IMG/VR virus record: IMGVR_UViG_3300030098_004740
Span: 28,626-92,625 of that record
Strand: one strand, 5' to 3'
Length of the DNA: 64,000 nt
From: a virus
Below are positions 24,297 through 62,557 of the stretch, one piece after another (within the stretch, counting starts at the first letter, position 1; each line of letters opens with the position of its first letter). A program made the position numbers and the translations under genes. The notes below the pieces were generated by a model. It was not told the DNA's origin. It made no database searches and worked only from the letters and a program-made list of their open reading frames with translations.

Positions 24297-24660
24297 CGTA
24301 TACTCCACCAGAATCAAATCTGATTATGTCATTTCTTTCTATTGGGTCTATCCAATATATTTCTAAAGCTTTAGTATCTTCTATTGCTTCAAATCTATGT
24401 TGAACATTAGGAGGAACATCCGAGAACATACCTTCATAAAGAATCGTCTCATCCTCACTATCCTGCTGATATATAATAACCTTTAAAGCTCCTTCTAGCA
24501 CAATAAATCTGTTCCATTTATTTGCGTGCTTATGTTTGGAACAAAAGCCATCCTTATCAGCTTCAATATAATGGACTTCGCAAGAAGAGTTTTCAAAGAA
24601 GCAACTAGTTTGGCCCCATATTTTGCCCTGAGTTGCTCCGGTTAAAGTTTTATGCGACAT
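24289..24660 (-). CDS. Cupin protein, sugar-isomerase type
   Basis: 123 residues, a single small cupin barrel. HKHANKWNRFIVLEGALKV is the first cupin motif (metal-binding His pair and the Glu-Gly turn), and VPPNVQHRFEAIEDTKALEI is the second. This resembles the C-terminal domain of type II mannose-6-phosphate isomerases and sugar isomerases such as WxcM/FdtA. Within the glycan cluster it probably isomerises or epimerises a sugar intermediate. It overlaps the next epimerase gene by eight bases. Confidence 0.8.
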   Translation of the reverse strand: MSHKTLTGATQGKIWGQTSCFFENSSCEVHYIEADKDGFCSKHKHANKWNRFIVLEGALKVIIYQQDSEDETILYEGMFSDVPPNVQHRFEAIEDTKALEIYWIDPIERNDIIRFDSGGVYDD

Positions 24661-24670
24661 ATTAAAACCT

Positions 24671-26510: not shown

Positions 26511-27559
26511 TCTTCGACTCCAAAAAGGGACATCTTTACATTAATACACTTTGCAGCTTCTTCTGGAAGATTAAGTTCCGTAAGTATCGAAGCGACTCTA
26601 TCAAAATAAGTATGGTTTTCTACGACAGATTCATAACCAGCTTTCATATGTTTGATTCGTTCATCTGGATTTTTTATATAGAAGTCTATTAGCTTCTTGA
26701 ATTCTTCTGGAGTCTTTGCAAAAACAATTTCGTTATTTGTGAAAACATCATTTGCCATTGATTCTACATAGTCAGAAATACAAAAACCTCCACTCATAAG
26801 AACCTTAAAAGGTCTTTCGATGATGTCGTATCCAAAATCTTGAGAATGTGGCTCACTAATATTTGGCGAGACAGTAGCAGAGGCAAATAAAGATCCGACA
26901 TTTTCAGAAGCTATACTCCCCATATATTGAACTACAGGCCAGTTTCTATTTCCAAATATCTTTATGTTGTAATCACCGACAGGGTGACATAGTTTGATCA
27001 AATACTTGTCCAAGCATTTTGCTTTGTAAGGCCAATATCCGCCAACAAATCCAATGTCACATTTGAGAACGTCCACTGGCGGTCTCAATCCAAACTCAAA
27101 TACATCAGCGCCATGTATTAAGGAAAAAGGCTTAATGCCAATGTCTTCCCATTTGTTATGCGTGTGCTTAATCCAGTTTTCGTGATAGTGGTTATGCACG
27201 AAGTCTGGTTTTCCCGTTTCTTTCTTTAGTCGTTCTAATAGTTTCTTTTCTTCTTTTGACGCTACTAAGATAGGATACTTATCAAGATCTATATCTTTTT
27301 GAATATCTCCCCAGTCTGAGCCACGCAGAACAACTTTCATATGAGGTCTGTGTTGGATGCATTTGAAAAGAGCTTCATCCAAGTGGTAACTTTGACCCAT
27401 AAAGATGTCTGGCTCAAACTCATCAAAAGCGTCAAATGCCGGAGTTTCATCCTTTTGCCATATACGGACTTCGTAGCCCATAGACGAAAAAACTTTTGAC
27501 CAAGATACTCTGATATAGTGATGGGCATTAAGTCCATCGCTACTTATTAGAACTTTCAT
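26507..27559 (-). CDS. CgeB-like GT-B glycosyltransferase
   Basis: 350 residues with two Rossmann-like halves. The C-terminal half holds CDIGFVGGYWPYKAK, NIKIFGNRNW, ERPFKVLMSGGFCISDYV and DERIKHMKAGYESVVENHTY. These fit the CgeB or spore-maturation-like glycosyltransferase group (Glyco_trans_1_2). The N-terminus MKVLISSDGLNAHHYIRVSW is a typical acceptor-domain start. It is a cytoplasmic transferase by prediction. A 49-residue microprotein overlaps its start by 20 bases. Confidence 0.82.
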   Translation of the reverse strand: MKVLISSDGLNAHHYIRVSWSKVFSSMGYEVRIWQKDETPAFDAFDEFEPDIFMGQSYHLDEALFKCIQHRPHMKVVLRGSDWGDIQKDIDLDKYPILVASKEEKKLLERLKKETGKPDFVHNHYHENWIKHTHNKWEDIGIKPFSLIHGADVFEFGLRPPVDVLKCDIGFVGGYWPYKAKCLDKYLIKLCHPVGDYNIKIFGNRNWPVVQYMGSIASENVGSLFASATVSPNISEPHSQDFGYDIIERPFKVLMSGGFCISDYVESMANDVFTNNEIVFAKTPEEFKKLIDFYIKNPDERIKHMKAGYESVVENHTYFDRVASILTELNLPEEAAKCINVKMSLFGVEE

Positions 27560-27689
27560 ACTTTTCTGCCGCTTCTTGTGCTTCTTCTATAGTGTGAAAA
27601 GGTCCAAGTTTAACCTTAACTTTGTTTTCCACATATTTCCAAGCATACCATTCATAGTTGTTTTTAATCCAACCCCAGTAGTTTCCCAT
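27540..27689 (-). CDS. Trp/Tyr-rich microprotein (49 aa)
   Basis: A short frame with ATG at 27689 and TAG at 27540. AAAGGA lies about ten bases before the start. The protein begins MGNYWGWIKNNYEWYAWKY and ends in a charged helix (TIEEAQEAAEKYESSNK). It fits the operon exactly: two bases after the nucleotidyltransferase stop, and overlapping the glycosyltransferase start by 20 bases. The five aromatic Trp/Tyr-rich turns suggest a small binding domain. No family recognised; the function is unknown. Confidence 0.75.
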   Translation of the reverse strand: MGNYWGWIKNNYEWYAWKYVENKVKVKLGPFHTIEEAQEAAEKYESSNK

Positions 27690-27691
27690 TA

Positions 27692-28396
27692 TTATAAGTC
27701 CTTTAAAGAATCTATTTCTCTTATTGTCATGCCTTTTGGCTCTTTAGCTCTTATTGTAAAACCGTTTTCTATTATAATATTAAATAATTCAAAAAGATAA
27801 AGTTTGTTTTTTCTCTTATCGGTACAAAGACTTTTTAACATCTTAAATGCTCCATCTTCAATATAGGCTATTTGCGACCATTTACTTGGCAACCCATAAG
27901 CAAATGTAGTTACTTTGTTTTCTACGACAGTTAAGCCTACTTCTTCTTCTTTGAATCTATTTTTTGAATCGAAAACAACGCAAGTTCCAGATGAGGTTAT
28001 TTCTCTTATGGAATAAACATTAAATATTAAGTCTCCATATATAATCAATGCGTTATCGTGAGCAGAGGCATTTATTCCTATTCTTAAGCTTTCTACAATA
28101 TTGGTTTTTTCGTAGTTTTGATTTTCTACTATTCTGACAAAACTAGGAAGGCTCTTTATAACCTTGTCAGCTTCAAACCCAACTACGACTATTATGTCGG
28201 AATATGGATATTCTCTTTTTATATTGGATACTGTTTTTTCTAGAATCGTTTCTTTTTGATTAGCTTTGAGCAAACACTTTGGTCCATACGACTTCATCCT
28301 GTGACCCATTCCTGCCACAGGTATGATTACTGTTAAAGGTTGGTCTGCTGATAAGCCGACACCTTTATCTTTTATTTTTGTCGTATGTCTGTTCAT
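27692..28396 (-). CDS. Sugar nucleotidyltransferase
   Basis: 234 residues. VIIPVAGMGHRMKSYGPKCLLK (residues about 23-44) is the signature of NTP-transferase enzymes, with the GxGxR loop and the PK pair. NALIIYGDLIF carries the metal-binding Asp, and GLPSKWSQIAYIEDGAF follows. Such enzymes activate a sugar phosphate to a nucleotide sugar, feeding the epimerases and transferases of this cluster. An alternative is a phosphocholine cytidylyltransferase-like activity, which has the same core. It overlaps the upstream gene by four bases. Confidence 0.85.
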   Translation of the reverse strand: MNRHTTKIKDKGVGLSADQPLTVIIPVAGMGHRMKSYGPKCLLKANQKETILEKTVSNIKREYPYSDIIVVVGFEADKVIKSLPSFVRIVENQNYEKTNIVESLRIGINASAHDNALIIYGDLIFNVYSIREITSSGTCVVFDSKNRFKEEEVGLTVVENKVTTFAYGLPSKWSQIAYIEDGAFKMLKSLCTDKRKNKLYLFELFNIIIENGFTIRAKEPKGMTIREIDSLKDL

Positions 28397-29157
28397 TGAG
28401 TTCTAGATTGCATTTTTTCCATTACTCTTAGCCAGTTTTTACGCCAAACTTCTTGATTGACAATAAACGAAGAGTTGTCCCCTGTAACCCTAACTTTGGT
28501 TAAAGATTCTGGCACATGAGCAATTATATATTTCTCACTTATTCTCATCCAAAGATCATAATCTTCACAAGTTCTCATGGTTTTATCGTAATAACCAGTC
28601 TCTTCCAAAACAGATTCAAGCGCTTCTTTTAGTATCAAAGATCCGCTATGCACAATGCATTCTTGAACAAGTCTTTTCCTGCTATAAGGCTCTTTAAATT
28701 CTCTAATGGTTCTATTGCTATTAACATGAAACGTATCATAGTCTCCATACACAACACCAACCATTCCTTCTCCACGAGCAAACACTGAAACACATTTGCT
28801 CACTTTACTTTCATACATTTCATCATCTGAATCAAGTATTGCGTAAATATCTGTATCTTCTAAGGTTTGTTTTATTCCTACGTTTCTAGCTTCACTTGGT
28901 CCAGAGTTTATATTTTTTATTGCAATAAAATTTGTATGTCCAAATCTTCCAGCACTTTTCTTTGTAAGAATATCTCCATCTTTGTTATCAAAGTATGAGC
29001 TTATAATTTCCCAAGATTCATCTTCTGACCCGTCGTCAACTATACATATAGTTAAAGGGCCGGGATAATCTTGATTGACTGCGCTTTCTATAGCGTTGTC
29101 AATATACTCTTCATCGTTGTAATTTGCTATTAAGATTGTGACTCTTGGTAAAGACAT
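28393..29157 (-). CDS. GT2-family glycosyltransferase
   Basis: 254 residues, GT-A fold. VTILIANYNDEEYIDNAIES is the family start, CIVDDGSEDES holds the first Asp pair, and AILDSDDEMY is the DXD-type donor and metal motif. CEDYDLWMRISEKY is the ED acceptor motif near residue 200. It should be a soluble transferase that adds one sugar using an NDP donor. It overlaps the next upstream gene by 28 bases. Confidence 0.9.
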   Translation of the reverse strand: MSLPRVTILIANYNDEEYIDNAIESAVNQDYPGPLTICIVDDGSEDESWEIISSYFDNKDGDILTKKSAGRFGHTNFIAIKNINSGPSEARNVGIKQTLEDTDIYAILDSDDEMYESKVSKCVSVFARGEGMVGVVYGDYDTFHVNSNRTIREFKEPYSRKRLVQECIVHSGSLILKEALESVLEETGYYDKTMRTCEDYDLWMRISEKYIIAHVPESLTKVRVTGDNSSFIVNQEVWRKNWLRVMEKMQSRTQ

Positions 29158-29942
29158 CTTAGTTTATCCCAGTCTGTTATTAAAGAATTAGATTCTAGTG
29201 TTTGGTCGAACTCTTCACCTTCTATAAGCTTGGTTTCAAACAGCGCTCCTCTATACCCATAGAGATATTTGTAAAGAACTGCTTGATGAAGTGTTCCACT
29301 CAAATTGTCTCCGTTCTTGACAAGAGCGACACTCTTTAGCTTTTTGTTCAAGGCGTAATGAAGCAAATCAGACGCATCTTCTGGAACTTCATCTCCGCAC
29401 TTTAATCCCATGTAAAAACCATTCGCTGATAATCTAAATGAATCGTCTAGAATGGCTTCAAAAGACATATCTTCACCAACACAATGAACTCTAAAGTCTG
29501 AGCCATACAAATCTTCTAGCTCTGCTTTTACATGTTGAAGTATTGGCATATAATCTTCAGGAGAAGTGCAAGTTACCAAGACTCGTTTTGGTGGATATTT
29601 TTGTCTTTTAATTGATTCAAGAGTTTTTTGAAAATTATCCTTATCGAGGCTATCCATTACAATGCAGTAATTTATTTTAGGATATGTCTCTTGGTTTAGT
29701 TGCTCTATGAGGTTTTTGTCTGAATGAGCGGTCTTCCACAACTCTTCTCTATAAGTGGAACACCAAGCCTTGACAACAAAAAATTCTTTATCTTCGTCAT
29801 CAAAAGCTTCGATAATTGGTGTTTTTCGTTCTTTGTATAATTTTATTTTTCCAAGATCGCAACCAATCTGAGTGTCTTCTTCCCAAGTGGCAAAAATGCA
29901 ATCTTTGCAAGAGGTGTTTATTTCTTGTAATAATTCTTTCAT
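29130..29942 (-). CDS. Four-Cys protein fused to a degenerate GT2-like domain
   Basis: 270 residues. Residues C12, C15, C28 and C61 form a possible metal knuckle. From residue about 90 the sequence (INYCIVMDSLDKDNFQKTLESIKRQ, then RVLVTCTSPED) follows the alternation of a GT2 domain but lacks a clear DXD motif. FYMGLKCGDEVPEDASDLLHY may stand in for the donor loop. It could be a non-catalytic partner of the GT2 enzyme whose gene it overlaps. Family membership is inferred. Confidence 0.6.
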   Translation of the reverse strand: MKELLQEINTSCKDCIFATWEEDTQIGCDLGKIKLYKERKTPIIEAFDDEDKEFFVVKAWCSTYREELWKTAHSDKNLIEQLNQETYPKINYCIVMDSLDKDNFQKTLESIKRQKYPPKRVLVTCTSPEDYMPILQHVKAELEDLYGSDFRVHCVGEDMSFEAILDDSFRLSANGFYMGLKCGDEVPEDASDLLHYALNKKLKSVALVKNGDNLSGTLHQAVLYKYLYGYRGALFETKLIEGEEFDQTLESNSLITDWDKLRCLYQESQS

Positions 29943-30403
29943 GGTCTAGTTGCCTCTAATATAGCTCTGATTCCTGAAATTCTCTTTTTAGTAACAACCA
30001 ATCCTAAAGATGTCAAAAAATCAGCAAGTTCTTCTACACTGCTATGGCTAAGCCTTACATCCCAAGGAGCTTGAAAAGTTCCATGTATTATTTTATTGAA
30101 TTGGTCTATGTTTATTTCTTTATCTAAGAAAGATTTGCAAACTTGATGAGTGTCAACAGAAGTTATTACTATTTTTCCTTTGTGTCTAATCTTTTTTACC
30201 CAATGCTTAAGGACTGTAAAAGATTCTTCTCTGTGCAAAAAGTCGATAACATCTTCGCAGATTATTTCAGTGCATTCTGCATCAGAGGCTATTGGGTCTA
30301 TATTTCTGATGTCTACCGCAATGTCATCAAACTTGCTTATAGGATCTATATTTATGTAGCCATTGAGCTTTTCTCTTTGGCCAACGGATATTCTTATTTT
30401 CAT
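29939..30403 (-). CDS. SAM-dependent methyltransferase-like protein
   Basis: 154 residues, short for the family. NGYINIDPISKFDDIAVDI and CTEIICEDVIDFLHREE match the acidic loops of small Rossmann methyltransferases, KIRHKGKIVITSVD is the strand after the adenine site, and HSSVEELADFLTSLGL the C-terminal helix. The N-terminal G-rich SAM loop is shortened (RISVGQREKLNG). It may methylate a sugar or regulate a partner; inactivity is possible. It overlaps the upstream gene region only at its ends. Confidence 0.6.
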   Translation of the reverse strand: MKIRISVGQREKLNGYINIDPISKFDDIAVDIRNIDPIASDAECTEIICEDVIDFLHREESFTVLKHWVKKIRHKGKIVITSVDTHQVCKSFLDKEINIDQFNKIIHGTFQAPWDVRLSHSSVEELADFLTSLGLVVTKKRISGIRAILEATRP

Positions 30404-30404
30404 C

Positions 30405-31427
30405 TTAGCCTCTATAAATGAATTGCGAAGATATTTCTAAAGTCCGATTCCAACTGTCAACAAATTTTGAAGTAGAATACTTTTCTGTAATTGTATTTCT
30501 TGCATTACTTCCTATTTTTTTTGCTAAGTCTTCGTTATTTAGAAGATCTACCAAATATTGTTTTAGCTCTTCTGGATCATTACTAATAAACCCATTGACT
30601 CCGTTCTCTATTATTTCCGGTATCATGCATGTTGCAGTGGTGACTACCGCACATCCACAAGACATAGCTTCCATAAGTGCTGTTGGAACTGGAGATATTG
30701 TTGAGGTATTAAGAAATATCCTACTGTTTTGGTAGGTGGCGACAAGCTCTTCAATTGAAGCAGCTGGTTTAGATAGACCCGGAGTATCGCCAACCACCTT
30801 GTGTGGTAAACCCTTTATTACATCTTGCCATAAACTAAATCCACAACACCAGTCTCTATTTACCCAATCATTTACAACAGATAGAATTTCGTCGCTTCTA
30901 TCTCCTTCTAAAGGGCAAAAAAGTTCAGTGTCTATGCCGTGAGTTATAACTTGTGTATCATCTTCAAGGTCGCGATTATCCCAACCCCAAGCATTGATGC
31001 TGTAGTCTGATATAAAAACATTTACATGACCTCTCATTTCCCTTAGTTGATAAAGCATAGATTCACCCCAAGCAGGCATTGGCAATGTATGCTCTAGACT
31101 TACCAAAGGAAGGTGAAACTTAGTCGCAAGTTCTTTTGCAATTTGGAATTGACCAAACTTGTTCTGAGAAAGAATTAAATCAAAATCCACATAGTCGGGT
31201 ATTTGAGCTTCTCCTAAAGCCGGATCTAACAAAATATAGTTACTGGGAAGTTTAGCGTATGTTTCGTTCCAGTCTTTTATTCCCTCTGCTCTATAAGAAT
31301 AGAAATTATGACCAGTCTTACACAGCATAGTTTCATATCGTTCATGAGTTGGGAACGTTAATATATTCAATTTTTCTACCGGAGTTCTTGTAGCTCCTCT
31401 AATAATGGAAGACATCTTAGTTGGCAT
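30405..31427 (-). CDS. GT4-family glycosyltransferase
   Basis: 340 residues, GT-B fold. The C-terminal half has SRIFLNTSTISPVPTALMEAM, followed by SCGCAVVTTATCMIPEII and NGVNGFISNDPEELKQYL, the donor-binding signature with the E-x7-E pattern. The N-terminal half has IDTELFCP. The ATG at 31427 has AAGGAG seven bases before it and overlaps the end of the upstream GT4 gene by 11 bases. Confidence 0.9.
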   Translation of the reverse strand: MPTKMSSIIRGATRTPVEKLNILTFPTHERYETMLCKTGHNFYSYRAEGIKDWNETYAKLPSNYILLDPALGEAQIPDYVDFDLILSQNKFGQFQIAKELATKFHLPLVSLEHTLPMPAWGESMLYQLREMRGHVNVFISDYSINAWGWDNRDLEDDTQVITHGIDTELFCPLEGDRSDEILSVVNDWVNRDWCCGFSLWQDVIKGLPHKVVGDTPGLSKPAASIEELVATYQNSRIFLNTSTISPVPTALMEAMSCGCAVVTTATCMIPEIIENGVNGFISNDPEELKQYLVDLLNNEDLAKKIGSNARNTITEKYSTSKFVDSWNRTLEISSQFIYRG

Positions 31428-32532
31428 CTAACAACTCCTTGATAAGATTTCCAATGTTCAAGTGAGAGTAGCTATAAGCCTGAGTTAGTCCTTCTGATTT
31501 CATATTGCTGAGACTGTCTTGATTCTCATAAACATGCCTCATGCTTTCCATCAAACCTCTGATGCTAACAGAACACCAATCTTCATTGCATGTAAACAGC
31601 TTTTTGAAAGTTCTTGTCATGCCAAAGACAGGCTCCATAGTTCCCTCAACTAAAAAGCCACCATTCTTAATAAAATCTTTCATGCCTCCTATGTTTGTAC
31701 AAATAGGAGTTTTTCCAAAACCCATTGCATCAAATGCAGGAATACACCAAGCTTCTCCATAGCTTGGCATTACAAAACAATCTCCTGTTGCATGAAGCCT
31801 GCACATGTCTTCAGGACTTAGGTAGTCCGTAATCATCAAGTCTTCTTTGTATTCTTGAATGGTGCTGAATTTTTTTAATCCAGCCTTTATTGCGTTTGAA
31901 ACATCCTTTAACTTGTTCGCAACTTCATCAGGTTTTAGACCATATTGACTCGTTTTTATAAGTAAAGAAACTGGCTCGCTTGGTTCAAATTCCATATGAA
32001 AAGCTTTAATTAAAGCTTCCAAATTTTTTCTTCTGTTTAGATCAGCTACTGTGTAGAAAACAAAAGAATCTTGCAGGTTGGGAATATGTATTTTTTCATA
32101 GGATCTTTCAAATTTTGAAAAATCTGTTGCATGAGGAACTACCTTTATTGGTATCGTTACTCCACTATCCCTCGAAGCTTTTACCATTTGGTCATTTATA
32201 ACCCAAGCTTCATCCATCATATTGATTTTTCTAGCCCAGCCTGAGTCCTTGAAATTACTAGTCTCAGTAGCATAAAGAGCTATATTTTTCTTAAACTTTG
32301 GACTGTATTCCATTAAGTGAGGAAGGACATGCTGTATGCAGACATCTGCTCCGTATCCGCTATGTTCTTCTAGCTCTTCGATTCTTTCTGGAACATACCC
32401 GCTTGTATTGTCTAACCTTAATGGCCTTGGGACGACTTCTATGCCAGCTTTGTCCATTGAAAGCATATAGTCTATAGCGGCATTGCCCCAACCTGTGCCA
32501 TCTCGGTAACAACCTACATATAAAACTTTCAT
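31417..32532 (-). CDS. GT4-family glycosyltransferase
   Basis: GT-B fold, about 371 residues from the chosen start. MKVLYVGCYRDGTGWGNAA is the glycine-rich acceptor-domain start. FYTVADLNRRKNLEALIKAF, CFVMPSYGEAWCIPAFDAMG and GKTPICTNIGGMKDFI are the donor-domain signature. I chose the ATG at 32532 because it overlaps the previous stop as TAATG, giving coupled translation; a start at 32565 would put 11 extra residues inside the upstream gene. Confidence 0.9.
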   Translation of the reverse strand: MKVLYVGCYRDGTGWGNAAIDYMLSMDKAGIEVVPRPLRLDNTSGYVPERIEELEEHSGYGADVCIQHVLPHLMEYSPKFKKNIALYATETSNFKDSGWARKINMMDEAWVINDQMVKASRDSGVTIPIKVVPHATDFSKFERSYEKIHIPNLQDSFVFYTVADLNRRKNLEALIKAFHMEFEPSEPVSLLIKTSQYGLKPDEVANKLKDVSNAIKAGLKKFSTIQEYKEDLMITDYLSPEDMCRLHATGDCFVMPSYGEAWCIPAFDAMGFGKTPICTNIGGMKDFIKNGGFLVEGTMEPVFGMTRTFKKLFTCNEDWCSVSIRGLMESMRHVYENQDSLSNMKSEGLTQAYSYSHLNIGNLIKELLDAN

Positions 32533-34163
32533 TATTTTATGTGCTGCTTTCTGAGCTTTTCCCAATCATTTCTTCTATTACAAAGACCTAGCATCATATT
32601 ATACGCCTCGTCTTTTCCGAAAGGCTCGAATATAGGTCTAACAAATTTATATGAGTCTTCGTTTAGGTACATTTCGCCTGTACCATTTATATACATTCCG
32701 TAATTTAAGTCTCGAATCAATCTAGACTCAAAATAGGTGTTTAGTTTTTCAGGCTCACCTAGAACATTTACTATTAACCATCTAGCATATTCAGAAGATG
32801 ACATCTCTGTTTTTGTCTGTGGTTGTGGTTGATGAAGCCGAGGAGAAGAACCCCAAGTTTGCTCAAAAGGTTTTATATCAACTGAGTCAAAGTAGTCTTC
32901 CCATTTTTTTGCCGTCTTATCCCATTGATAATATTTTTCAAAGTTAAGGCGCGTATTTTTAGAAAGAGTATTTATTTCTTGTTCTGATTTATTAAAGAAC
33001 TCTTTCATTTTTTCAGCTGTGTAATCATTGTCTGGAACAGCTCTGTCACAACCAGTTTCTAATTCGCTATAAAGGGTTTTTACTTTTAAAGGTGTTCCTC
33101 CTAAATTTCTCACAACGCTAGACATGGCTGAGTAATCTATGCTCATCACAGGGACTCCACAAGCAGCTGCCTCAACTTGCGGTAGTCCAAAACCTTCGCT
33201 ATTAGCATATTGTATATATAAATCAAACATATTCATTATATTTGAGAGATATTCATACGAAGCTCCTTTTTGCACGCTAGACAATCCAGCATTTGAACTT
33301 CCGCATATTTTGCACTTTCTCTGTGCGTCAGAGAAGAATGCAGGAAAGCTTTGATTACAAGTGTTACAAGTATATGTAAAAAGAGTTTTACTAGCTATTT
33401 TGTATTTGTTAAGAAGTTTTGGTATATCCCAGCCTAAATCTGGGTAACTAGTGTGGCAATATAGATAAACATCTTTTCTTCCACTTATATCCAAAAACTT
33501 TCTGTAGGACTCAAAGAGGTCTGGAAATAGTTTCCTTCTTTGGTTTCTCATCACGGTTCCGACAAACTTAATATCGGAAGAAAACCCCATGTTTACCTTA
33601 TGTTGACCTTTGTCTTGTACTGGTTGATAAGCTGCATCAGCAGATGGAGGAGCAGAGCCTAAACATTTGATATTACCGTTAGACTCTTTTTCTAATACTT
33701 CATGACCCCATTGAGAGTAGTTAAAAACACCGTCTGCGTTACAAAATGTGGATAACCATTGTTCATTTTGAGGAGCAGCGTCTACGGTAGGCATTATCGC
33801 CCAATTAAAATATGGCCTAAAGGCAGACCTGTCTTGGTATTCAAACATCCAAAAGTCACGAATGTCACAGACGATATCTGGAAGAAAGTCAAGTAAAACC
33901 GACTCAAATTTCCATTCACCAAATTGGTTAGTGGGTATCTCGTCGTACTGTTGCTGTTGGCTGTCTTTTGTTGGTAGGTTTCCATAAAATTTCCAAGGAA
34001 TGTCTACTCCTCGTGGATCTCCATCTTTTCCATAGCTTGCAAATTCTGCCATCTCATATTTTTGAGTAGCGTAGAGAACCTTCATTACTTCTCTTAGATA
34101 CGTAGCGTATCCAGTGTTTAAATATGTGGCTTCCCCGCAAAAAAGTATTCTCTTTTTTCTCAT
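32532..34163 (-). CDS. GT4-like glycosyltransferase with internal zinc ribbon
   Basis: 543 residues. RILFCGEATYLNTGYATYLREV is the N-terminal GT-B loop, and IQYANSEGFGLPQVEAAACGVPVMSIDY the donor-site signature. At residues about 264-295 a four-Cys ribbon (CNTC and CKIC, 17 residues between) sits inside the donor domain. I know of no standard place for such a ribbon in GT4 enzymes. About 100 extra C-terminal residues (EYARWLIVNVLGEPEKLNTY) may be a partner-binding domain. It overlaps the sigma-like gene upstream by four bases. Confidence 0.85.
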   Translation of the reverse strand: MRKKRILFCGEATYLNTGYATYLREVMKVLYATQKYEMAEFASYGKDGDPRGVDIPWKFYGNLPTKDSQQQQYDEIPTNQFGEWKFESVLLDFLPDIVCDIRDFWMFEYQDRSAFRPYFNWAIMPTVDAAPQNEQWLSTFCNADGVFNYSQWGHEVLEKESNGNIKCLGSAPPSADAAYQPVQDKGQHKVNMGFSSDIKFVGTVMRNQRRKLFPDLFESYRKFLDISGRKDVYLYCHTSYPDLGWDIPKLLNKYKIASKTLFTYTCNTCNQSFPAFFSDAQRKCKICGSSNAGLSSVQKGASYEYLSNIMNMFDLYIQYANSEGFGLPQVEAAACGVPVMSIDYSAMSSVVRNLGGTPLKVKTLYSELETGCDRAVPDNDYTAEKMKEFFNKSEQEINTLSKNTRLNFEKYYQWDKTAKKWEDYFDSVDIKPFEQTWGSSPRLHQPQPQTKTEMSSSEYARWLIVNVLGEPEKLNTYFESRLIRDLNYGMYINGTGEMYLNEDSYKFVRPIFEPFGKDEAYNMMLGLCNRRNDWEKLRKQHIK

Positions 34164-35031: not shown

Positions 35032-36618
35032 TTAAGATAATTCAATAACGTCTTCTACTATGAATCCGTCGTCTATTTGATTTCTTATATTTCTGGAATC
35101 TTGACCTTTTAATATCACGTTGTTGCCCTCATAAAGAACATTTTTAAACTTTTGCCAATTATCTGCAAATACGGTTATAGTATCTATAGTTCCAGTGTGA
35201 TCTTCTGCACAAATGAAAGCCATCTCTACGCCTTTCATCTTTCCTCTTTTTGTCACATATTTTTTGACATCAGATATTGTCACAGCCATCTTGACATTCT
35301 TCCTCTTGCCAGAGGAAAATTCTTTGATTGTAGTGTTGGCTAGACTAGTGTTATAAGACTCAATTCTAGAATGACTCAAGGATACTCCAAGGTAGTTCTC
35401 TTCTGTCCTGACTACCCATTCAGGCTCATCTCGTAATGAATAAGAAGGATTTTCACAATGGATGACTAGATCAGATATGATCTGAGATCTTTTTGCGTTG
35501 TGAGTTGCACCTCCAGATTTTTTAGTTGGAGACATTGCTTTCAACAAACTAACTAAAGAATCAAAATCTGATATATTATCGACAGCCCATTCCTGCTCTT
35601 TCTTGGTTATGTTGCTCCAAGTGTCAAGCTCGTCTAACATTCGTTGCCTAGACTCAGGAAACTTATGAAAGAACCCTATGGATATTAAGGCTATTATCAT
35701 TCTAGAATTGCATTTCGACGAAGCCAATATCAGAAACTCATACCATGTCCAGTCAGCAAAAGGTTTGTTGTATGATTCTTCTGCTTCTGCTATTACAGAT
35801 TTCATCTTTTCGACTTGCTTAAGACCTACAGTTTTTACATCTAAAAATCCAAAGCATATTTTTTCGTCGATTATGTCGGTGTAAGTGTTCATGGCCTTGA
35901 ATGACGGAGGATTGATGTATATATCTACATTCTTAGCGTCATTTACAAGCTGTTTAACTTCCTGCTGAGGGTCAGGCTTTCCAGACGAATGCAAAAGGTA
36001 GTTACAGTAAAACTCAAGAGGATGATGAGCCTTAGCATAAGCACTCCAGTAAGCGCAAATAGCGTAAGAAACAGCGTGAGACTTATTGAAAGCATACCTG
36101 CTGGATTTTTCAATCCAACTAAAAATCTCTTCAGCAACTTCATCGCTTACAACCCCTTTTTTAGACGCGCCTTTGAGGAATGATTCTTTGACCTTAGCCA
36201 TAAGGTCTGCCTTCTTCTTACCAATCGCTTTACGCAGGTTATCAGCTTCTTGAAGATCAAAGCCAGCAAGCTGCTGAGCTATCTGCATAGACTGTTCTTG
36301 GTAAACAAGGACTCCTTGAGTTCCTTTTAGAATTGGCTCAAGAGATGGATGAAGATAAGTTATCTCTTCAGCTCCATTCTTTCTGTCAACAAAGTGTTGG
36401 GTCATTGTTTTGCCATCTACTATGGCTTTGAGGGTTCCCGGTCTGATAATTGATATCAGAGCAGAAAGCTCTTCTATATTTCTTGGTTGAACTCTTTTAG
36501 CCCAAGACTTGCCTAAGTTACTTTCTAGCTGGAATACACCTTTAGTTCTTCCAGAACATATCAAGTCCCAAGTCTGAGTATCATCAAAATTAACTTCAAG
36601 TGGATTGAAATCAGACAT
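35032..36618 (-). CDS. dnaE: DNA polymerase III alpha, C-terminal half (split DnaE)
   Basis: 528 residues. WDLICSGRTKGVFQLESNLGKSWAKR matches the fingers region that follows the third catalytic Asp in DnaE. RPGTLKAIVDGK, GVLVYQEQSMQIAQ and VSYAICAYWSAYAKAHHPLEFYC are fingers signatures. A helix-hairpin-helix segment (FFHKFPESRQRMLDEL) and an OB fold (KMAVTISDVKKYVTKRGKMKG) follow. The tau-binding C-terminal domain of bacterial DnaE is absent. The gene cannot be active alone: all three catalytic Asp are in the N-terminal half at 37526-39439. Two intact genes separate the halves. No intein sequence is visible at this start. Confidence 0.93.
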   Translation of the reverse strand: MSDFNPLEVNFDDTQTWDLICSGRTKGVFQLESNLGKSWAKRVQPRNIEELSALISIIRPGTLKAIVDGKTMTQHFVDRKNGAEEITYLHPSLEPILKGTQGVLVYQEQSMQIAQQLAGFDLQEADNLRKAIGKKKADLMAKVKESFLKGASKKGVVSDEVAEEIFSWIEKSSRYAFNKSHAVSYAICAYWSAYAKAHHPLEFYCNYLLHSSGKPDPQQEVKQLVNDAKNVDIYINPPSFKAMNTYTDIIDEKICFGFLDVKTVGLKQVEKMKSVIAEAEESYNKPFADWTWYEFLILASSKCNSRMIIALISIGFFHKFPESRQRMLDELDTWSNITKKEQEWAVDNISDFDSLVSLLKAMSPTKKSGGATHNAKRSQIISDLVIHCENPSYSLRDEPEWVVRTEENYLGVSLSHSRIESYNTSLANTTIKEFSSGKRKNVKMAVTISDVKKYVTKRGKMKGVEMAFICAEDHTGTIDTITVFADNWQKFKNVLYEGNNVILKGQDSRNIRNQIDDGFIVEDVIELS

Positions 36619-36634
36619 AACTCACCTTAATTTA

Positions 36635-37318
36635 TCAAATATATGTTTCACCATCCGCAAACGATTTTTCAAATGTTATTTTTGGAGCTACTCTTCTATG
36701 AAGCTTCATGAATCGAATCATTAAATTGGCTGTATCTTTAACATCTTGCAATGCATCGTGAGCATTTTCTTTACTCATACCAAATAGGTCTCGCATTGAA
36801 TCCATGCTTAATGACTTTACGTCGGCATTGTTTTCCATCCACATCCACATAGTATCCATTACATCAACTCTGTGAATTTTATTAAATAAAGTTTGCTTTC
36901 CGGTCTTCTTGTCAATTGGCCCGTATAGTTCACACATTCTCTGTACAATCGGCATATCAAAGCCAACAATATTGTAGCCAGCTGCGATTGGTGCGTAAAA
37001 CGGCTTGTTCTTAAAATTGTACCTATTTACAAAGTTTGTAAATTTCTTCCAAACTGTTCGTTCCGATGGAGCTTTTGCCAATTCTTCTCTGGTTTTTCCG
37101 TTGACTGCTAGAGCCTCGTCTTCGATGGGGTCTAGTCCCATACTAATAGCTTCGTCGTCGTCCAATACAGGACGTATGAGGCTTTCAAAGTAGCCATCCG
37201 GTTGCAATGTTAAGTTTCTGCCATGAATCGCAACTGCGGCAATTTGGACAGGCTGGGTTTTATCAGGATTTCTAGAACCTGTTTCAAAATCAAATACAAT
37301 TATGTCTCTATAATTCAT
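36635..37318 (-). CDS. DnaQ-like 3'-5' exonuclease (proofreading candidate)
   Basis: 227 residues, DEDDh family. IIVFDFETGSRN gives the first Asp and Glu, AAGYNIVGFDMPIV the second Asp, and AHDALQDVKDTANLM the His and last Asp. It removes mismatched 3' ends. Its gene lies between the two DnaE halves, and a small gene separates it from the N-terminal half, so the product very likely serves as the phage's epsilon subunit. I see no recognised clamp-binding motif. Confidence 0.92.
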   Translation of the reverse strand: MNYRDIIVFDFETGSRNPDKTQPVQIAAVAIHGRNLTLQPDGYFESLIRPVLDDDEAISMGLDPIEDEALAVNGKTREELAKAPSERTVWKKFTNFVNRYNFKNKPFYAPIAAGYNIVGFDMPIVQRMCELYGPIDKKTGKQTLFNKIHRVDVMDTMWMWMENNADVKSLSMDSMRDLFGMSKENAHDALQDVKDTANLMIRFMKLHRRVAPKITFEKSFADGETYI

Positions 37319-37533
37319 CTCATTTTCCTTCTCAACTCAAAAAATTTATTCAATGCTTCTTCTATATCTTCATACAGACCACTAAACGAACGACAGTGAA
37401 CCTGATATTTTATCTTTTTATTCATTGGTTCATAAAAGTCATTTATCATGCATATGCTAAGACCTTTGTATTCACTATAGCGTCCACTCGTTATTCTTTC
37501 TCTAACGTTTTGTTTGTAGCTTTTTTTATACAT
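37315..37533 (-). CDS. Small basic protein between the DnaE halves
   Basis: 72 residues. The N-terminus is basic (MYKKSYKQNVRERIT), and the rest is a strand-rich region ending in a helix (EDIEEALNKFFELRRKMR). No family recognised. It overlaps the DnaE-N stop by eight bases and the exonuclease start by four. It might bridge the two polymerase halves or bind DNA; nothing in the sequence proves this. Confidence 0.75.
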   Translation of the reverse strand: MYKKSYKQNVRERITSGRYSEYKGLSICMINDFYEPMNKKIKYQVHCRSFSGLYEDIEEALNKFFELRRKMR

Positions 37534-39439
37534 CTTTTTTCTCTAATTGATCTCTTATACCCATTAGTTTATCCATTAAGGAAATACCCAGTATATCAAA
37601 TTTGACATGACCCATTGATTCAAGGTCGTTCATTTCCATTCCGGCTATTTTGTCGGAGCTTCTTTTGTCTCTAACCATTGGGCAAACATCATCTAGTTTA
37701 TGAGAAGATATTACGACTCCTGCTGCGTGTTTGCCTTGTGACTTAAATGTTCCTTCAATGCGCATAGCTTGCTTAAAATATGTAGCTAGATTTCCTTCTA
37801 GCTCTCCATCATCATTTAGCCTGCAATAGTCTCTCAAGGCTTCTGGCTGGTTCATCAATGTCCATTGAATCACAGATGGCTCATCCATTTCAGCCAGTTG
37901 GTCAGAGACTTCGTGTTCGTGAGGCAGGCTCTTCGTTATCTCTTTCATTTCTTCGTATGGACAAGCTTCATTTATTCTCAAAACTTCTGTTAATGAACTT
38001 CTTCCTTGAAGTCTTCCAAATGTCACCATTTGACCAACTCTATCATTGCCATACTTTGATCTAATATAATCTATTGTCTCGTCTCTTTTGGTAGCTGGGA
38101 CATCAATGTCGATATCTGGTAAAGATACGTGTCCTCCAGTATTTCTACCGGCATTATAAAATCTCTCAAAGATCAAGCCATATTCCATTGGGTCAACTTG
38201 AGTTATCCCAACTAAGTATGATACTAGACATCCAGCAGCAGAACCTCTACCCGGACCGGGAATGTAATTCTTCTCTACTACACTGTTTACAATATCTCTA
38301 ACGATTAAAAAGTAACCAGCTAAATTAGCTTCACTAATTACATCAAGTTCCTTTTTTATTTGTTCTGTATAAAGGTCTTTTGATTGTTGGTTGTTTATTT
38401 TCCCACTAGGTTCTAACCTGTTCTTCCAGCCTTCTCTACACAGTTGTCTTAAATATTGGTCTTCTGAAATTTCTTGTGGGCATTTGAATTTAGGCAGCAT
38501 TGGCTGGCCTAAGATATTATAGTCTTCACACATAGAAGATATTTGCATCGCCATGTCAATTTCGGCGGCAGTGTTTACCTGTTGTATTTCTTCTAGCGTT
38601 GGTATATGAAAAGAGTTTGAATTTAAAAAACCACTAAATGCTGAATCGCCAGTTTCTTTTAATCTGCTCTTTGCTTTGCGAAGAGTGGTTTTCATAGAGG
38701 AGCATAACAGTAATAATTGATCTTCTGCATCCTCTCTTCTTGGGTAGTGAGAATCAGCAGTTGCAACAGACTGGAATTTGTATTTCTTGGCAATATACCT
38801 TAAGCCTTTAGCAACAACGGTGGCTGCTGGAGATTTGTCTTGGTCTATTGCTTGTATTTCTATAAAGAAATTGTCTTTGCCAAATATTTCTTTGTACTTA
38901 TTCGCTATGAACAAAACGTTGTCAACCCAATCGGGATGAGTAAACCTTATAGCCTCTTCTTCTGTTTTAGCATTGTAAGCAGACTTTGGATCAATAAATA
39001 TTGCATTTGCCAAGTCGCTGCCAAGATGACCACTAAATGCTATGAGGTTTCCATCTGCAAATTGACCGAGAGTATTTAAGTCAAGTCTTGGCTTGTAATA
39101 ATAATTTTCTTCGTCATTGCTTTTAGAAACAGCTTGGATTAGGTTATGCCAACCCTTTTTGTTTTTAGCAAGCACGCAAAGATGACTAAGCTTCTTATTT
39201 TCGTCGTTCTTCACAGTGCAATCTTGCTGGCTTAGGTAGAACTCGCAACCAAGAATAGGTTTAATATTCTTTTTCTTCATTGCCTGAGTGAAAGATACAG
39301 CCCCTGATATAGTGCCGTGATCCGTTAAGGCGCAAGAAGTATAGCCAACCTCAGAACATCGTTCAGCAACCTGTGAAGGCTTACTGAGGCCATCTAGGAG
39401 GCTATAGTGCGTATGAAGGTGTAGTGGTGTCCAACTCAT
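37526..39439 (-). CDS. dnaE: DNA polymerase III alpha, N-terminal half (split DnaE)
   Basis: 637 residues. Residues 7-16 (HLHTHYSLLD) open the PHP domain. Residues about 440 (LPDIDIDVPATKRDE) hold the first two catalytic Asp, and near residue 613 HVKFDILGISLMDKLMGI holds the third. PGPGRGSAAGCLVSYLVGI is the palm nucleotide loop. The protein stops just after the third Asp motif; in bacteria the same chain continues into the fingers. No intein block (Cys start, HN end) is visible at its end. The C-terminal half is encoded at 35032-36618. Confidence 0.93.
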   Translation of the reverse strand: MSWTPLHLHTHYSLLDGLSKPSQVAERCSEVGYTSCALTDHGTISGAVSFTQAMKKKNIKPILGCEFYLSQQDCTVKNDENKKLSHLCVLAKNKKGWHNLIQAVSKSNDEENYYYKPRLDLNTLGQFADGNLIAFSGHLGSDLANAIFIDPKSAYNAKTEEEAIRFTHPDWVDNVLFIANKYKEIFGKDNFFIEIQAIDQDKSPAATVVAKGLRYIAKKYKFQSVATADSHYPRREDAEDQLLLLCSSMKTTLRKAKSRLKETGDSAFSGFLNSNSFHIPTLEEIQQVNTAAEIDMAMQISSMCEDYNILGQPMLPKFKCPQEISEDQYLRQLCREGWKNRLEPSGKINNQQSKDLYTEQIKKELDVISEANLAGYFLIVRDIVNSVVEKNYIPGPGRGSAAGCLVSYLVGITQVDPMEYGLIFERFYNAGRNTGGHVSLPDIDIDVPATKRDETIDYIRSKYGNDRVGQMVTFGRLQGRSSLTEVLRINEACPYEEMKEITKSLPHEHEVSDQLAEMDEPSVIQWTLMNQPEALRDYCRLNDDGELEGNLATYFKQAMRIEGTFKSQGKHAAGVVISSHKLDDVCPMVRDKRSSDKIAGMEMNDLESMGHVKFDILGISLMDKLMGIRDQLEKKDV

Positions 39440-49995: not shown

Positions 49996-50135
49996 TTTTC
50001 TTCCTTCTTTTCGTATTTCCAAATCAAATTGGAAAGAGTGCTTCTAGTAATTTTATTACCAGCTTCTACTTCTTTGTTAAGTCGCTCAGCTAGCCACTTG
50101 AGCATCTCATTATCTATTGTAATATTTCTAAGCAT
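49992..50135 (-). CDS. Ribbon-helix-helix microprotein (47 aa)
   Basis: A short frame from ATG 50135 to TGA 49992. NITIDNE is a strand, MLKWLAERLNKEVEAGN and TRSTLSNLIWKYEKK are two helices, the ribbon-helix-helix pattern of Arc/MetJ-type DNA-binding dimers. Its ATG overlaps the nrdB stop (TAATG) and its stop overlaps the dut start (GTGA), so it sits inside the dNTP operon and may regulate it. Confidence 0.75.
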   Translation of the reverse strand: MLRNITIDNEMLKWLAERLNKEVEAGNKITRSTLSNLIWKYEKKEEK

Positions 50136-51151
50136 TAGAAATCGTCTTCAATATTTCCAACTGCGTATTCAGTGACACGAGTTTCAAAGAAGTTCTTGCA
50201 TTTCTCTAGGTCGATAATTTCACTTAACCAAGGAAATGGATTTTTGGTATCTTCATAGGGACTTGGTAGATTCAAGTCTTCTAGTCTACGGTTTGCTATA
50301 TACTGCACATAATCAATAAACATGTCAGAGTTCAGCCCTAAGATACCATTTGGAAGAACATCTCTCGCATAAGCAAGCTCAAGCTCCATGGCTTTATCTA
50401 TATGCTCTAGAGTTTCTTTTTCAAAAGCTTTAGTCCAAACCTTTGGGTTGTCTTCTCTTATTCTGTTTATGAGAGTAGTTCCAAATTTGATATGCAAACT
50501 TTCATCACGAAGCGTGTATTGAATTTGTTCTCCAACCCCCGGCAGCTTATTCTGTCTATTAAAGGAGAGCAGCATTGCAAAACCGGAAAAGAAAAAGATT
50601 CCTTCACATATGATGTAGTAGGTAATGATGTTTCTTAGAAACTCTCTCTTGCCTTCTAAAGTGTTGATATTAAAGTCTGGTCTATTAATATCCGTACATA
50701 TGTTCATTAGGAACTCATCCTTAGACTTGATGCTAGGTATTGAGTTATATGCTTGGTAGACTTCATCAATTTTGAGACCGAGAGAGTCGCAGCAATAAAC
50801 AACCGTCAAGTTGTGCAAACTTTCTTCGTAAGCCTGTCTAAGTATATATTGGCGACATTCAGGATCAGTTACATACTTAAAGATGCTAAGTAGTAGGTTG
50901 TTTGCTACTAGAGATTCTGAGCCAGCAAAGAATCCTAAAGATCTTTTTACCACTAACTTCTCGTCATTAGTTAGTAAATCAGAACGCCACTGTTCAATAT
51001 CTTTAGCCATTGAAATTTCAGTAGGCATCCAGTTATTAGCCGCACCGTCAATGAATAAATCCCATGCCCATTTATTTGTGTGAGGAAGGATTTGATTAAC
51101 TACTGCAACTTTGTCCGAAATAATTTCTTTAGTCTTTTTCATTACTGGCAA
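50135..51151 (-). CDS. nrdB: Ribonucleotide reductase small subunit, class Ic-like
   Basis: 338 residues. Metal ligands are E79, E110, H113, E183, E217 and H220. The first is Glu, not the Asp of class Ia. Four residues after H113, where the tyrosyl radical sits (E. coli Y122), there is Val 117; Tyr 119 is two residues further. The pattern SES LVANN, ESLHNLTVVY and RDESLH matches the class Ic group (Mn/Fe cofactor, no Tyr radical) known from Chlamydia and relatives, in which the site may be Phe, Leu or Val. It overlaps nrdA by ten bases. Confidence 0.93.
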   Translation of the reverse strand: MPVMKKTKEIISDKVAVVNQILPHTNKWAWDLFIDGAANNWMPTEISMAKDIEQWRSDLLTNDEKLVVKRSLGFFAGSESLVANNLLLSIFKYVTDPECRQYILRQAYEESLHNLTVVYCCDSLGLKIDEVYQAYNSIPSIKSKDEFLMNICTDINRPDFNINTLEGKREFLRNIITYYIICEGIFFFSGFAMLLSFNRQNKLPGVGEQIQYTLRDESLHIKFGTTLINRIREDNPKVWTKAFEKETLEHIDKAMELELAYARDVLPNGILGLNSDMFIDYVQYIANRRLEDLNLPSPYEDTKNPFPWLSEIIDLEKCKNFFETRVTEYAVGNIEDDF

Positions 51152-53598
51152 CTTTCACAATCTGGATCATCTAGTGAGCAAGCTTTAACTTGACTTAAGT
51201 CTTCTTCAGGAACTTCTTCTTTTACTGTCTGAACTGTAGACTTCTCAAGTCTTGTTGCAGCTTTGCTTCTTAAGTAATACGTTGTTTTTAAACCCTGCTC
51301 CCAAGCGTGCATGTACATATCGTTGAGATACTTGAGGCTAGTGCCTTTATTGTACAGGTTAAGAGATTCGCCCATGTCGATCCACTTTTGTCTTTCAGCC
51401 GCTGCATCAAGCAAAATGGTTGGTTCAATATCAAATGCAGTCTTGAATTCTCTTTGCAGTTCTTCGTCTAAATTTATTGACATAACATCACCATCAGCCG
51501 CCTTAAGAGCTTCTACTAAATCTTTTCCCCATATACCCTTCTTCTTTGCAGCCTCTACAAAATGTTCGTTAATCATTGTAAACTCGCCGCTTAAAGTTGA
51601 GTATACAAAAAGGGTTGAATAGTCAGGCTCAATAGATTGAGAGCATCCCTGTATATAAGAAATTGTTGCAGTAGGAGCGATAGCCATGACATTTGAATTT
51701 CTCATTCCATATTCAGCTATATGCTCTCTAACTTTGCTCCAGTCCATTGTTTCAAAGTCAGAAGGTTTGTAATGATTATCTTTACCATTCTTTAAGTGTT
51801 CTGGATGTCTTTCATTCATCAATCGACAGTAAGTGTCGATAGGCAAGTTGCCATAGCTCCACTCAGAACCCTCGTAAGATTCGTAGTGTCCTCGTTCCTT
51901 CGCTAATTTAGAAGAGGTGAGAATAGCATGATAAGAGATGAATTCTTGTATTTTGCCACACAGAATAACAGCATCTTGAGAATTGTAAACAACCCCTAGC
52001 TTATGCAATAAGCCATGAGTACCCATAATACCTAGACCAACAGGACGGTTTCTGAGGTTAGACTTAGCCGCTTCTTTAGTTGGGTAAAAGTTAAGGTCGA
52101 TGACATTATCCAAGCCTCTGATAGCTACCTCTACTGTTTTCTGTAGCTTCTTCCAGTCAATGGTGCGAACCTTAATGTGATTCTCAAGATTGATAGAGGC
52201 AAGGTTGCAGACAGCAGTCTCTCCTACCTCAACGACTTCACCATCTTCATAAGTTGTTGGTTTAGTGTGAAGAAGTATTTCCGTACACAAATTAGAAGAA
52301 TGGACCACGCCTTCATGTTTATTGCTATAACGAATATTAGAAGGGTCTTTGAAAGTAATCCATGGATGTCCTGTCTCGTATAAAGACTTGAGCATCTTCT
52401 TCCACAAATCTTTGGCGTTTATAACACGGAAGTTTTTAATACCTCCCTCTTTTGCCATCTTTTTGTACTTGTTATAAACTCTCGTAAACTTTTTACCGTA
52501 TGTTTCATGCAGGTCAGGGCATTCAGAAGGATCAAACAAATACCAATCTCTGCCCTTCTGAGCTGCCAACATGAACTCATCACAAATCCATAAGGCGGTA
52601 TTCATGTCATGACAACGACGACGATCATCACCTGTGTTTTTTCTTAGGTCTAAAAAGTCTTCAACATCAAGATGCCATGCTTCTAAATAAGCACAGCCAG
52701 CACCCTTGCGCTTGCCGCCCTGATTCACGCCTACAAGCGTATCATTGAATATCTTTAACCAAGGAATTAATCCAGAAGACTGGCCATTTGTACCTTTGAT
52801 ATAAGAACCAGTAGAACGAACAGAACTCCAGTCTACCCCAAGACCTCCAGCATATTTTGATAGTCTGGCCTGACCATGAATCGTACCAAAGATACCATCA
52901 ATAGAGTCATCGACTGTACTTAGATAACAAGAAGATAATTGTGAGTGACAAGTTCCGCTATTAAAAAGAGTCGGAGTAGATGGTGAATATCTAAACTCAG
53001 ACATCATATTGTAAATTTCTATAGCTTTTTCTTCTTTGTTCTCTTCGTTCAAGCAAAGACCCATTGCGACACGCATATAGAAAGCTTGAGGAGTCTCCAT
53101 CCTACGGCCTTCTTTATGAATGAAATAACGATCATATAAGGTCTGGATACCAAGATACTTAAAATTCTTGTCTCTCTCTAAGATCAGATTTTTACTAAGC
53201 AAATCGAGATCATAAGAAAGAATCTCTTCACTTAATCTATCTTCTTTTACAAGCGTCTTTATATTTTTTATAAAAGATGACCTATACTCTTCTTCAAAGT
53301 CACCGTTTACGCTTTTGCCAAAAACTTCTTTGTAAAGACTAGACAGCAATAGGTTTGTTGCAACGTAAGTATAATTTGGCTCTTGTTCTATTTTAGATCG
53401 AGCAGACATGATTAAAGCAGTGTCTATTTCAGATGTAGTTATCTTATTGTATAACTGTAAACTTGCATCTAATACTACTTCACTAACATTGACATCTGAT
53501 AATCCTTCACAGGCTCTCTCAACACACTTGTTGATTTTATCAAGGTTAATTTGTTCCAGTCTTCCATTACGTTTCTTAACTTTGATGTCTGAAGTCAT
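51142..53598 (-). CDS. nrdA: Ribonucleotide reductase large subunit
   Basis: 818 residues. An ATP-cone is at the N-terminus (KVKKRNGRLEQINLDKINK). The barrel has SGTCHSQLSSC, the active-site set SNLCTEI with its Asn, Cys and Glu, and AVCNLASINL. A late motif is ATISYIQGCSQSIEP. The C-terminal DPDCESCQ is the redox Cys pair reduced by thioredoxin, two of which are encoded at 56885-57467. It makes dNDPs. The start has CGGA eight bases before it; two terminators end about 26 bases upstream. Confidence 0.95.
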   Translation of the reverse strand: MTSDIKVKKRNGRLEQINLDKINKCVERACEGLSDVNVSEVVLDASLQLYNKITTSEIDTALIMSARSKIEQEPNYTYVATNLLLSSLYKEVFGKSVNGDFEEEYRSSFIKNIKTLVKEDRLSEEILSYDLDLLSKNLILERDKNFKYLGIQTLYDRYFIHKEGRRMETPQAFYMRVAMGLCLNEENKEEKAIEIYNMMSEFRYSPSTPTLFNSGTCHSQLSSCYLSTVDDSIDGIFGTIHGQARLSKYAGGLGVDWSSVRSTGSYIKGTNGQSSGLIPWLKIFNDTLVGVNQGGKRKGAGCAYLEAWHLDVEDFLDLRKNTGDDRRRCHDMNTALWICDEFMLAAQKGRDWYLFDPSECPDLHETYGKKFTRVYNKYKKMAKEGGIKNFRVINAKDLWKKMLKSLYETGHPWITFKDPSNIRYSNKHEGVVHSSNLCTEILLHTKPTTYEDGEVVEVGETAVCNLASINLENHIKVRTIDWKKLQKTVEVAIRGLDNVIDLNFYPTKEAAKSNLRNRPVGLGIMGTHGLLHKLGVVYNSQDAVILCGKIQEFISYHAILTSSKLAKERGHYESYEGSEWSYGNLPIDTYCRLMNERHPEHLKNGKDNHYKPSDFETMDWSKVREHIAEYGMRNSNVMAIAPTATISYIQGCSQSIEPDYSTLFVYSTLSGEFTMINEHFVEAAKKKGIWGKDLVEALKAADGDVMSINLDEELQREFKTAFDIEPTILLDAAAERQKWIDMGESLNLYNKGTSLKYLNDMYMHAWEQGLKTTYYLRSKAATRLEKSTVQTVKEEVPEEDLSQVKACSLDDPDCESCQ

Positions 53599-53629
53599 TT
53601 GTGATCCGAGAGATTTTTATATTAAAAAA

Positions 53630-53646
53630 AGTCCACTGAATGGACT
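53630..53646 (-). terminator. Terminator just before nrdA
   Basis: On the minus strand AGTCCA, a five-base loop TTCAG, then TGGACT pair perfectly, and TTTTTTT follows down to 53624. The nrdA start is about 26 bases further on. Confidence 0.75.
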
Positions 53647-53649
53647 GCT

Positions 53650-53794
53650 GAAAAAAAATAGAGCGACACCTGTTATACTAAGTGATTTGTTAGAGTAAAA
53701 GTAAACACGATAAAACTACTCACTTAGTGCAACATAGGCTTGTTGAGTATGTGTCGCTCTAGCTCTCTTTTGCAAGAAGCTCTTTATAACCCAA
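53650..53794 (-). ncRNA. Candidate structured RNA ending in a terminator stem
   Basis: About 145 bases from a likely start near 53794. A hairpin at 53761-53781 has a GCAA tetraloop. An outer 10-11 bp stem pairs 53659-53669 with 53751-53761; inside it, 53677-53685 pairs with 53720-53728 over 9 bp, and a small CAACA/TGTTG hairpin sits beside it, giving a three-way junction. Eight Ts follow the outer stem (53651-53658). It does not fit a tRNA and I do not recognise a known riboswitch. It may be a free small RNA or a leader control element for nrdA. Confidence 0.55.
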
Positions 53795-53798
53795 CAAG

Positions 53799-53809
53799 TT
53801 ATTATACAC
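53799..53809 (-). promoter_or_regulatory. GTGTATAATAA promoter-like site
   Basis: Shares the GTGTATAATA core with the sites at 19103 and 62543. Its TATAAT (53801-53806) would start a transcript near 53794, just at the structured RNA. Flanks differ from the other two and no -35 box is clear. Confidence 0.5.
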
Positions 53810-53868: not shown

Positions 53869-53979
53869 CTACTTGGGGTAAGCCGCATCTTTGGAATTAT
53901 ACTTCCTCAGACGCAATCGACGACTTTCTTTTAGGCGTTTTTTATCTTTTTTGCTTTTATTTCTTACTGTTTTTCCCAT
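53869..53979 (-). CDS. Small basic protein (36 aa)
   Basis: ATG at 53979, TAG at 53869. The product begins MGKTVRNKSKKDKKRLKES and has 16 Lys/Arg of 36. Similar very short basic proteins starting M.KTVRNKS occur in phages. It overlaps the upstream gene by 23 bases; the binding site is weak. A nucleic-acid binding role is possible. Confidence 0.6.
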   Translation of the reverse strand: MGKTVRNKSKKDKKRLKESRRLRLRKYNSKDAAYPK

Positions 53980-62542: not shown

Positions 62543-62557
62543 TATTATACACCATTA
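62543..62557 (-). promoter_or_regulatory. Conserved phage promoter, copy 2 (TAATGGTGTATAATA)
   Basis: Identical 15-mer to 19103-19117, with TATAAT as the -10 box. It lies across the stop codon of the DeoC-like gene, about 70 bases before the virion-protein start. No -35 box is evident. Confidence 0.65.

Follow-up and report, generated by a model that had tools for sequence, protein, structure and literature searches.

A structured element in front of a phage nrdA gene

Does the sequence directly upstream of the nrdA gene of an uncultured phage give rise to a small RNA in its own right, or is it a leader through which the reductase is controlled? The question was raised by an initial annotation of a 64-kb stretch of DNA (the window), which is part of the marine-type phage record G000 (92,625 bases). 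No close relative of this record was found by DNA similarity among 50,697 phage records, its relatives at the protein level being distant, and a tRNA/tmRNA scan found neither. The nrdA gene starts with an ATG at position 53598 of the minus strand, and all the pieces that had been listed upstream of it were present on that strand: TATAAT, a hairpin with a GCAA loop, an 11-bp stem, T8, and a second hairpin with T7 (cf. Table 1). The spacing between T7 and the start codon, given as about 26 bases, amounts to 25 nt. The 211-nt leader folded better than all of 200 dinucleotide-shuffled sequences (z -3.3), and a 149-nt piece of it gave a z of -2.7; the HP1 fold taken alone is weak in the window. The segment CAACAAG (53745-53739) does pair with CTTGTTG (53798-53792), and ACTCAACAAG/CTTGTTGGGT extend this helix to 10 bp. 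It had been described as an alternative pairing, but covariation identifies it as the conserved core (see below). Since the -10 box lies only 2-4 nt before the 5' strand of this helix (X), the first few bases of X may be untranscribed.

Table 1. Coordinates of the element and of the reductase genes in the window
Feature	Position	Strand	Observation
Promoter-like box GTGTATAAT; TATAAT at 53801-53806	53801-53809	minus	same box precedes most elements and two other window genes
X, pseudoknot 5' strand, CUUGUUGGGU	53789-53798	minus	covaries with X'
A-rich linker L1, UAUAAAG; family motif AUAAAAGAG	53782-53788	minus	conserved; A17 of first sequence nearly invariant
HP1 hairpin, AGCUUCUU-GCAA-AAGA.G.AGCU, GCAA loop	53761-53781	minus	predicted in elements folded; sequence and length variable
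P2 5' arm UAGAGCGACAC; family core GCUARAGCGRCAC	53751-53761	minus	highest conservation in the element; compensatory changes, P2 cells 98-99% paired
X', pseudoknot 3' strand, ACUCAACAAG	53739-53748	minus	covariation with X
P3 mini-hairpin GC(CUAUGUU)GC	53729-53739	minus	no change at either GC pair in 20 sequences
P4 hairpin ACUAAGUGA...UCACUUAGU	53677-53728	minus	double changes within the window's clade
P2 3' arm (P2') GUGUCGCUCUA	53659-53669	minus	11 bp with 5' arm UAGAGCGACAC
T8 after P2, first intrinsic-terminator-like end	53651-53658	minus	T-rich run at this place in 48 of 51 elements
Second terminator, 7-bp hairpin 53646-53630, T7 to 53624	53624-53646	minus	-7.7 kcal/mol, z -3.5
nrdA, class I ribonucleotide reductase large subunit	51142-53598	minus	PF02867, E 1.5e-183; ATP-cone and all-alpha domains
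nrdB, small subunit, gene after nrdA in operon	50135-51151	minus	PF00268, E 3.6e-78

A predicted RNA family absent from Rfam

A NrdA search of viral contigs yielded 54 loci, and with pattern scans for the P2 arms in 2.9 million viral contigs, 46 distinct elements were obtained in all. A covariance model (R1) was built from 31 of them and, when run on 75 nrdJ loci, retrieved five further variants, which raised the total to 51 distinct elements. Three of the five were clearly divergent (L128, L132, and L133, with 57, 44, and 40 bits, respectively). The carriers are uncultured, mostly marine viruses of bacteria. The same order recurs in all elements, namely X, A-rich linker, HP1, CUARA, P2, 1-5 nt, X', P4, and P2', while the inner domains vary about twofold in length. 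P3 takes the form GCC-GAAA-GGC in the L013 clade and is absent from the L018-L029 clade, and the position of P4 is occupied in other clades by a predicted hairpin of different sequence.

The model found one strong match per record; weak matches (E > 0.004, the E-values of the model being rough) were mostly the element's own antisense. Records from nrdA phages further removed, and those of four cultured phages, gave no strong match, and the sole match of a genome-contig scan (L097), which fell within a Vibrio maerlii gene for an ABC-transporter ATPase, was rejected as due to chance. Rfam 15, which the initial annotation had suggested consulting, matched no family in the 64-kb window at gathering scores, and relaxed scans of the window leader and nine other loci returned only sub-threshold, chance-like matches. 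No description of the RNA was found in a literature search that reached few subscription papers. The putative RNA is a covariation-backed family absent from Rfam, and it comes from an uncultured, largely marine phage lineage for which no close cultured relative was found.

Covariation points to an H-type pseudoknot

In the 31 aligned sequences, all nine X/X' pairs had changes on both sides, and the covariation score was 0.378, while shuffled partners gave 0.207 and slid partners no more than 0.130. Shuffle-based statistics of this kind are inflated by related rows; a permutation at the level of clusters and the divergent variants left out of training are the safer evidence. In the former, 12 X core types paired with their own X' at 61 of 72 positions, whereas 20,000 permutations averaged 47.5 and reached 57 at most. 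As to the latter, P2 was kept, with compensatory changes, in L128, L132, and L133, all outside the training set of the model. Within the 31 sequences, P2 was 98% paired, and three of its pairs had changed on both sides. In the window's clade, double changes were seen at 6 of the 14 pairs of helix 3, which consists of P4 and its outer extension. The P3 pairs have no covariation support, since they never vary, and HP1 was treated as a folding prediction and left unscored because its alignment slips.

The covariation of X/X' and P2 establishes the pseudoknot as real, and we describe the conserved core, as deduced from the comparison, as an H-type pseudoknot in which X/X' crosses the 11-bp P2, with HP1 and the inner hairpin P4 in addition. 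Matching mutations keep the knotted shape intact in many viruses, which implies that the RNA itself must matter. Absence of covariation had been named in advance as a result that would speak against a functional RNA; the covariation is in fact strong, which supports one. The three-way junction of the initial annotation survived in part: its closing stem is the covarying P2, while the junction of the plain minimum-free-energy fold, formed via CAACA/UGUUG, is conserved only among the closest relatives and accounts for just part of the structure. Altogether, the comparison shows the X/X'-P2-P4 structure, its single copy, and its position before the reductase operon.

The element heads reductase operons of two classes

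A reductase operon lies directly downstream of the element in 51 of 51 cases and is either of class I (nrdA) or of class II (nrdJ, called by the insertion domain of B12-dependent reductases), and the RNA hence marks the head of the operon regardless of reductase class; its assignment to nrdA alone was too narrow. The gene that follows the element is nrdA or nrdJ, or else a small or SNase-like gene preceding one of them, while the upstream neighbours vary by clade and include a dCMP deaminase, a basic protein of 34-36 aa, zinc-knuckle-like small proteins, and others. The nrdJ-type RNAs of L057 and L061 resemble nrdA-type RNAs most closely, as is expected if the reductase was exchanged while the RNA stayed. 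Shared synteny inherited from a common ancestor explains part of this pattern. Related small basic proteins (FEV.F..KDKNGKPT) are encoded between the RNA and nrdJ or nrdA in L070 (9572-9796), L028 (1735-1935), and L011 (3837-4004), and that of L070 matched no Pfam family.

The box GTGTATAAT was also found at 19108-19116 (plus strand) and 62544-62552 (minus strand), directly before ORFs at 19150 and 62470 that possibly encode virion proteins. Because there are three matches in the window against 0.66 expected, and with no -35 consensus, the box is probably a phage-specific general promoter that lacks a -35 box. In nrdJ relatives without the RNA (L121, L123, L125, L126, L160, L174, and L194), a AGTGTATAAT box stands directly before the SNase-nrdJ operon, and L174 offers a natural empty site, reading AGTGTATAATACTACATG where L067 has box, RNA, and ATG. 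Since these relatives keep the box directly on the operon, the RNA sits between the operon promoter and the first gene. In L127 and L130 (2690-2780), the same promoter and a small gene precede nrdJ, but a short unrelated hairpin replaces the RNA.

Two layouts were observed downstream of P2'. In 28 of the 51 elements, the operon starts 13-49 nt past P2', behind one U-run and with no shared promoter box between, so that the reductase mRNA must cross the terminator; the same follows for the nrdJ mRNA of L128, where the likely Shine-Dalgarno sequence AGGAG abuts the U-run. The other layout, with a second terminator after P2, occurs in 23 of 51 elements. This terminator reaches -14 to -18 kcal/mol in the clade comprising L018-L029, L058, L073, and L083-L085, and in 12 of the 23 a conserved promoter-like box resembling GGTACAAT stands before nrdA. 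Three of the 23 (L023, L025, and L026) have lost the U-run after P2 with pseudoknot and P2 retained, and P2 must therefore be kept not only for termination. In the window, two terminators precede nrdA, and no promoter is evident between them and the gene. We found no antiterminator pairing conserved across clades, UGUUGC pairing with the P2 5' arm only in close relatives. A leader peptide was considered and rejected, as an AUG after X with an SD-like GGAG is present in L018 only.

A discrete small RNA, a leader, or both

The RNA itself is the common denominator across these layouts, which leads us to favour, with a probability of roughly 0.5, a new small-RNA family of phages whose product is a discrete RNA over a cis-acting attenuator or riboswitch. 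A phage promoter (AGTGTATAAT) would drive a transcript of about 140 nt, both promoter and ends being placed from sequence. In this RNA, X at the 5' end would pair with the internal X', and P2' at the 3' end would pair with the segment immediately preceding X'. Both ends would thereby be locked in an H-type pseudoknot with one hairpin in each large loop (HP1 and P4). As P2 runs into the U-run, the folded RNA would terminate itself, the second terminator often serving as a backup. It is only moderately likely that this RNA, once released, is itself the functional product, either in trans or as part of a complex with protein, and the same holds for the expression of the reductase genes of the window phage by read-through of the RNA's terminators. 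Of the features of a small non-coding RNA gene, a conserved structure and a terminator are present, and the conserved -10 box suggests the promoter. A free RNA is favoured by the 23 elements with a second terminator, the 12 with a box before nrdA, the three without a U-run, and the lack of a family-wide antiterminator. Against it stand the 28 elements with the layout of an attenuated leader and, as regards action in trans, the finding that all elements head a reductase operon, which such action does not require.

Of the two options offered by the initial annotation, a free small RNA or an nrdA leader, both thus keep evidence. The RNA would then be a discrete transcript with a terminator of its own and, in many phages, that of the window among them, also a leader read through into the operon; both may hold in the window's clade. 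A similar arrangement is known from phage lambda, in which 6S RNA is the short terminated transcript of the late-promoter leader (tR') and read-through needs protein Q. The phage promoter directly upstream, the short terminated transcript, and gene expression by read-through are alike, whereas lambda 6S lacks a conserved pseudoknot and depends on Q. RydC, a pseudoknotted bacterial sRNA bound by Hfq, is likewise a small free RNA in an H-type pseudoknot, as the phage RNA is proposed to be, but it is about half as long, and neither its sequence nor Rfam relates it to the phage RNA. If the RNA is indeed free, it is a novel small RNA of phages with a fixed place at a locus of core metabolism.

We regard a cis-acting leader as less probable, though a serious alternative. 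The pseudoknot would set the frequency with which polymerase terminates at P2 and at the second terminator, and reductase would be made only upon read-through; perhaps it senses a nucleotide, a cofactor, or a protein, as an attenuator or riboswitch whose aptamer stem is the terminator. Every element found by the pattern scans precedes a reductase operon, a U-rich run follows P2 in 48 of 51, the RNA lies between the AGTGTATAAT box and the operon (L174 versus L067), and the L128 mRNA has to cross the terminator. This reading is opposed by the isolation of nrdA behind a strong second terminator and a promoter-like box in 12 elements, by the persistence of P2 without a U-run in L023, L025, and L026, and by the candidate pairings mutually exclusive with the terminator being clade-specific only. 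Control by read-through, if true, would explain how phages of this kind set the timing of dNTP synthesis. We regard it as rather unlikely that the family is a new ligand- or protein-sensing RNA class controlling phage DNA-precursor synthesis, in which the closing stem of a pseudoknot aptamer doubles as terminator and which was kept through swaps of class I and class II reductases.

A precedent for a leader is the 2'-deoxyguanosine riboswitch that controls a ribonucleotide reductase gene in Mesoplasma florum (PMC12268651). There, too, a structured leader that contains a terminator precedes a reductase gene, but this leader is bacterial, has a clear antiterminator switch, and adopts a purine-riboswitch fold without a pseudoknot crossing the 5' and 3' ends; our RNA had no Rfam match to purine or 2'-deoxyguanosine riboswitches and, in place of their three-way junction, conserves an H-type pseudoknot. 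The manA and wcaG motifs, found in marine cyanophages and metagenomes in possible 5' UTRs of metabolic genes including those of nucleotide synthesis (PMC2864571), are also structured RNAs mainly from marine metagenomes and phages upstream of metabolic genes, but they are unrelated by Rfam scan and have no tie to reductase. Neither these motifs nor the riboswitch resemble the phage RNA in sequence or structure. The Rfam cobalamin consensus, expected upstream of nrdJ for an AdoCbl riboswitch, gave no match, and the RNA also precedes nrdA, which uses no cobalamin.

It is improbable that the RNA is a cis-acting processive antitermination element of the put or EAR type, in which the nascent RNA would modify polymerase to ignore the two following terminators. 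Structured antiterminator RNAs exist, and the position of the window nrdA behind two terminators would suit one, but such an element would defeat itself, as its own conserved stem ends in a U-run, and Rfam gave no match, EAR included. Still less credible is a self-cleaving ribozyme of the HDV type, a nested pseudoknot starting at the 5' end of the RNA: in both, a 5'-end helix crosses the helix closed by the 3' end, and a hairpin occupies the P4 position, but the helix order P1-P2-P3-P1'-P4-P2' is not that of the phage RNA, which has a hairpin between X and P2 and 1-5 nt in place of a P3 between P2 and X' (the counterpart of P1'), and Rfam again gave no match. Ordinary tandem terminators with the remaining fold due to chance are hardly tenable: intrinsic terminators alone are common (six terminator-like sites in the stretch versus 4.9 expected), but the covariation of pseudoknot, P2, and P4 (31 and 20 sequences) and the retention of pairing while the sequence of X varies refute this reading.

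Other features of the window

Immediately upstream of the RNA, at 53869-53979 (minus strand), a very basic 36-aa protein (MGKTVRNKSKKDKKRLKESRRLRLRKYNSKDAAYPK) is encoded, possibly an RNA-binding peptide; related proteins are encoded close to the RNA in nrdA as well as nrdJ phages of the window's clade and are absent from other clades. A DNA polymerase III alpha-like protein appears to be split on the minus strand, its two ORFs (35032-36618 and 37526-39439) flanking an exonuclease-like ORF (36635-37318). At 22411-34163 (minus strand), there is a cluster of nucleotide-sugar epimerase and glycosyltransferase genes, as if for the modification of host-surface or virion glycans, while the plus strand at 7180-18462 carries an ORF of 3760 aa in which cysteine-rich segments (CxxxGGTW-like) recur many times and which probably encodes a giant virion protein.
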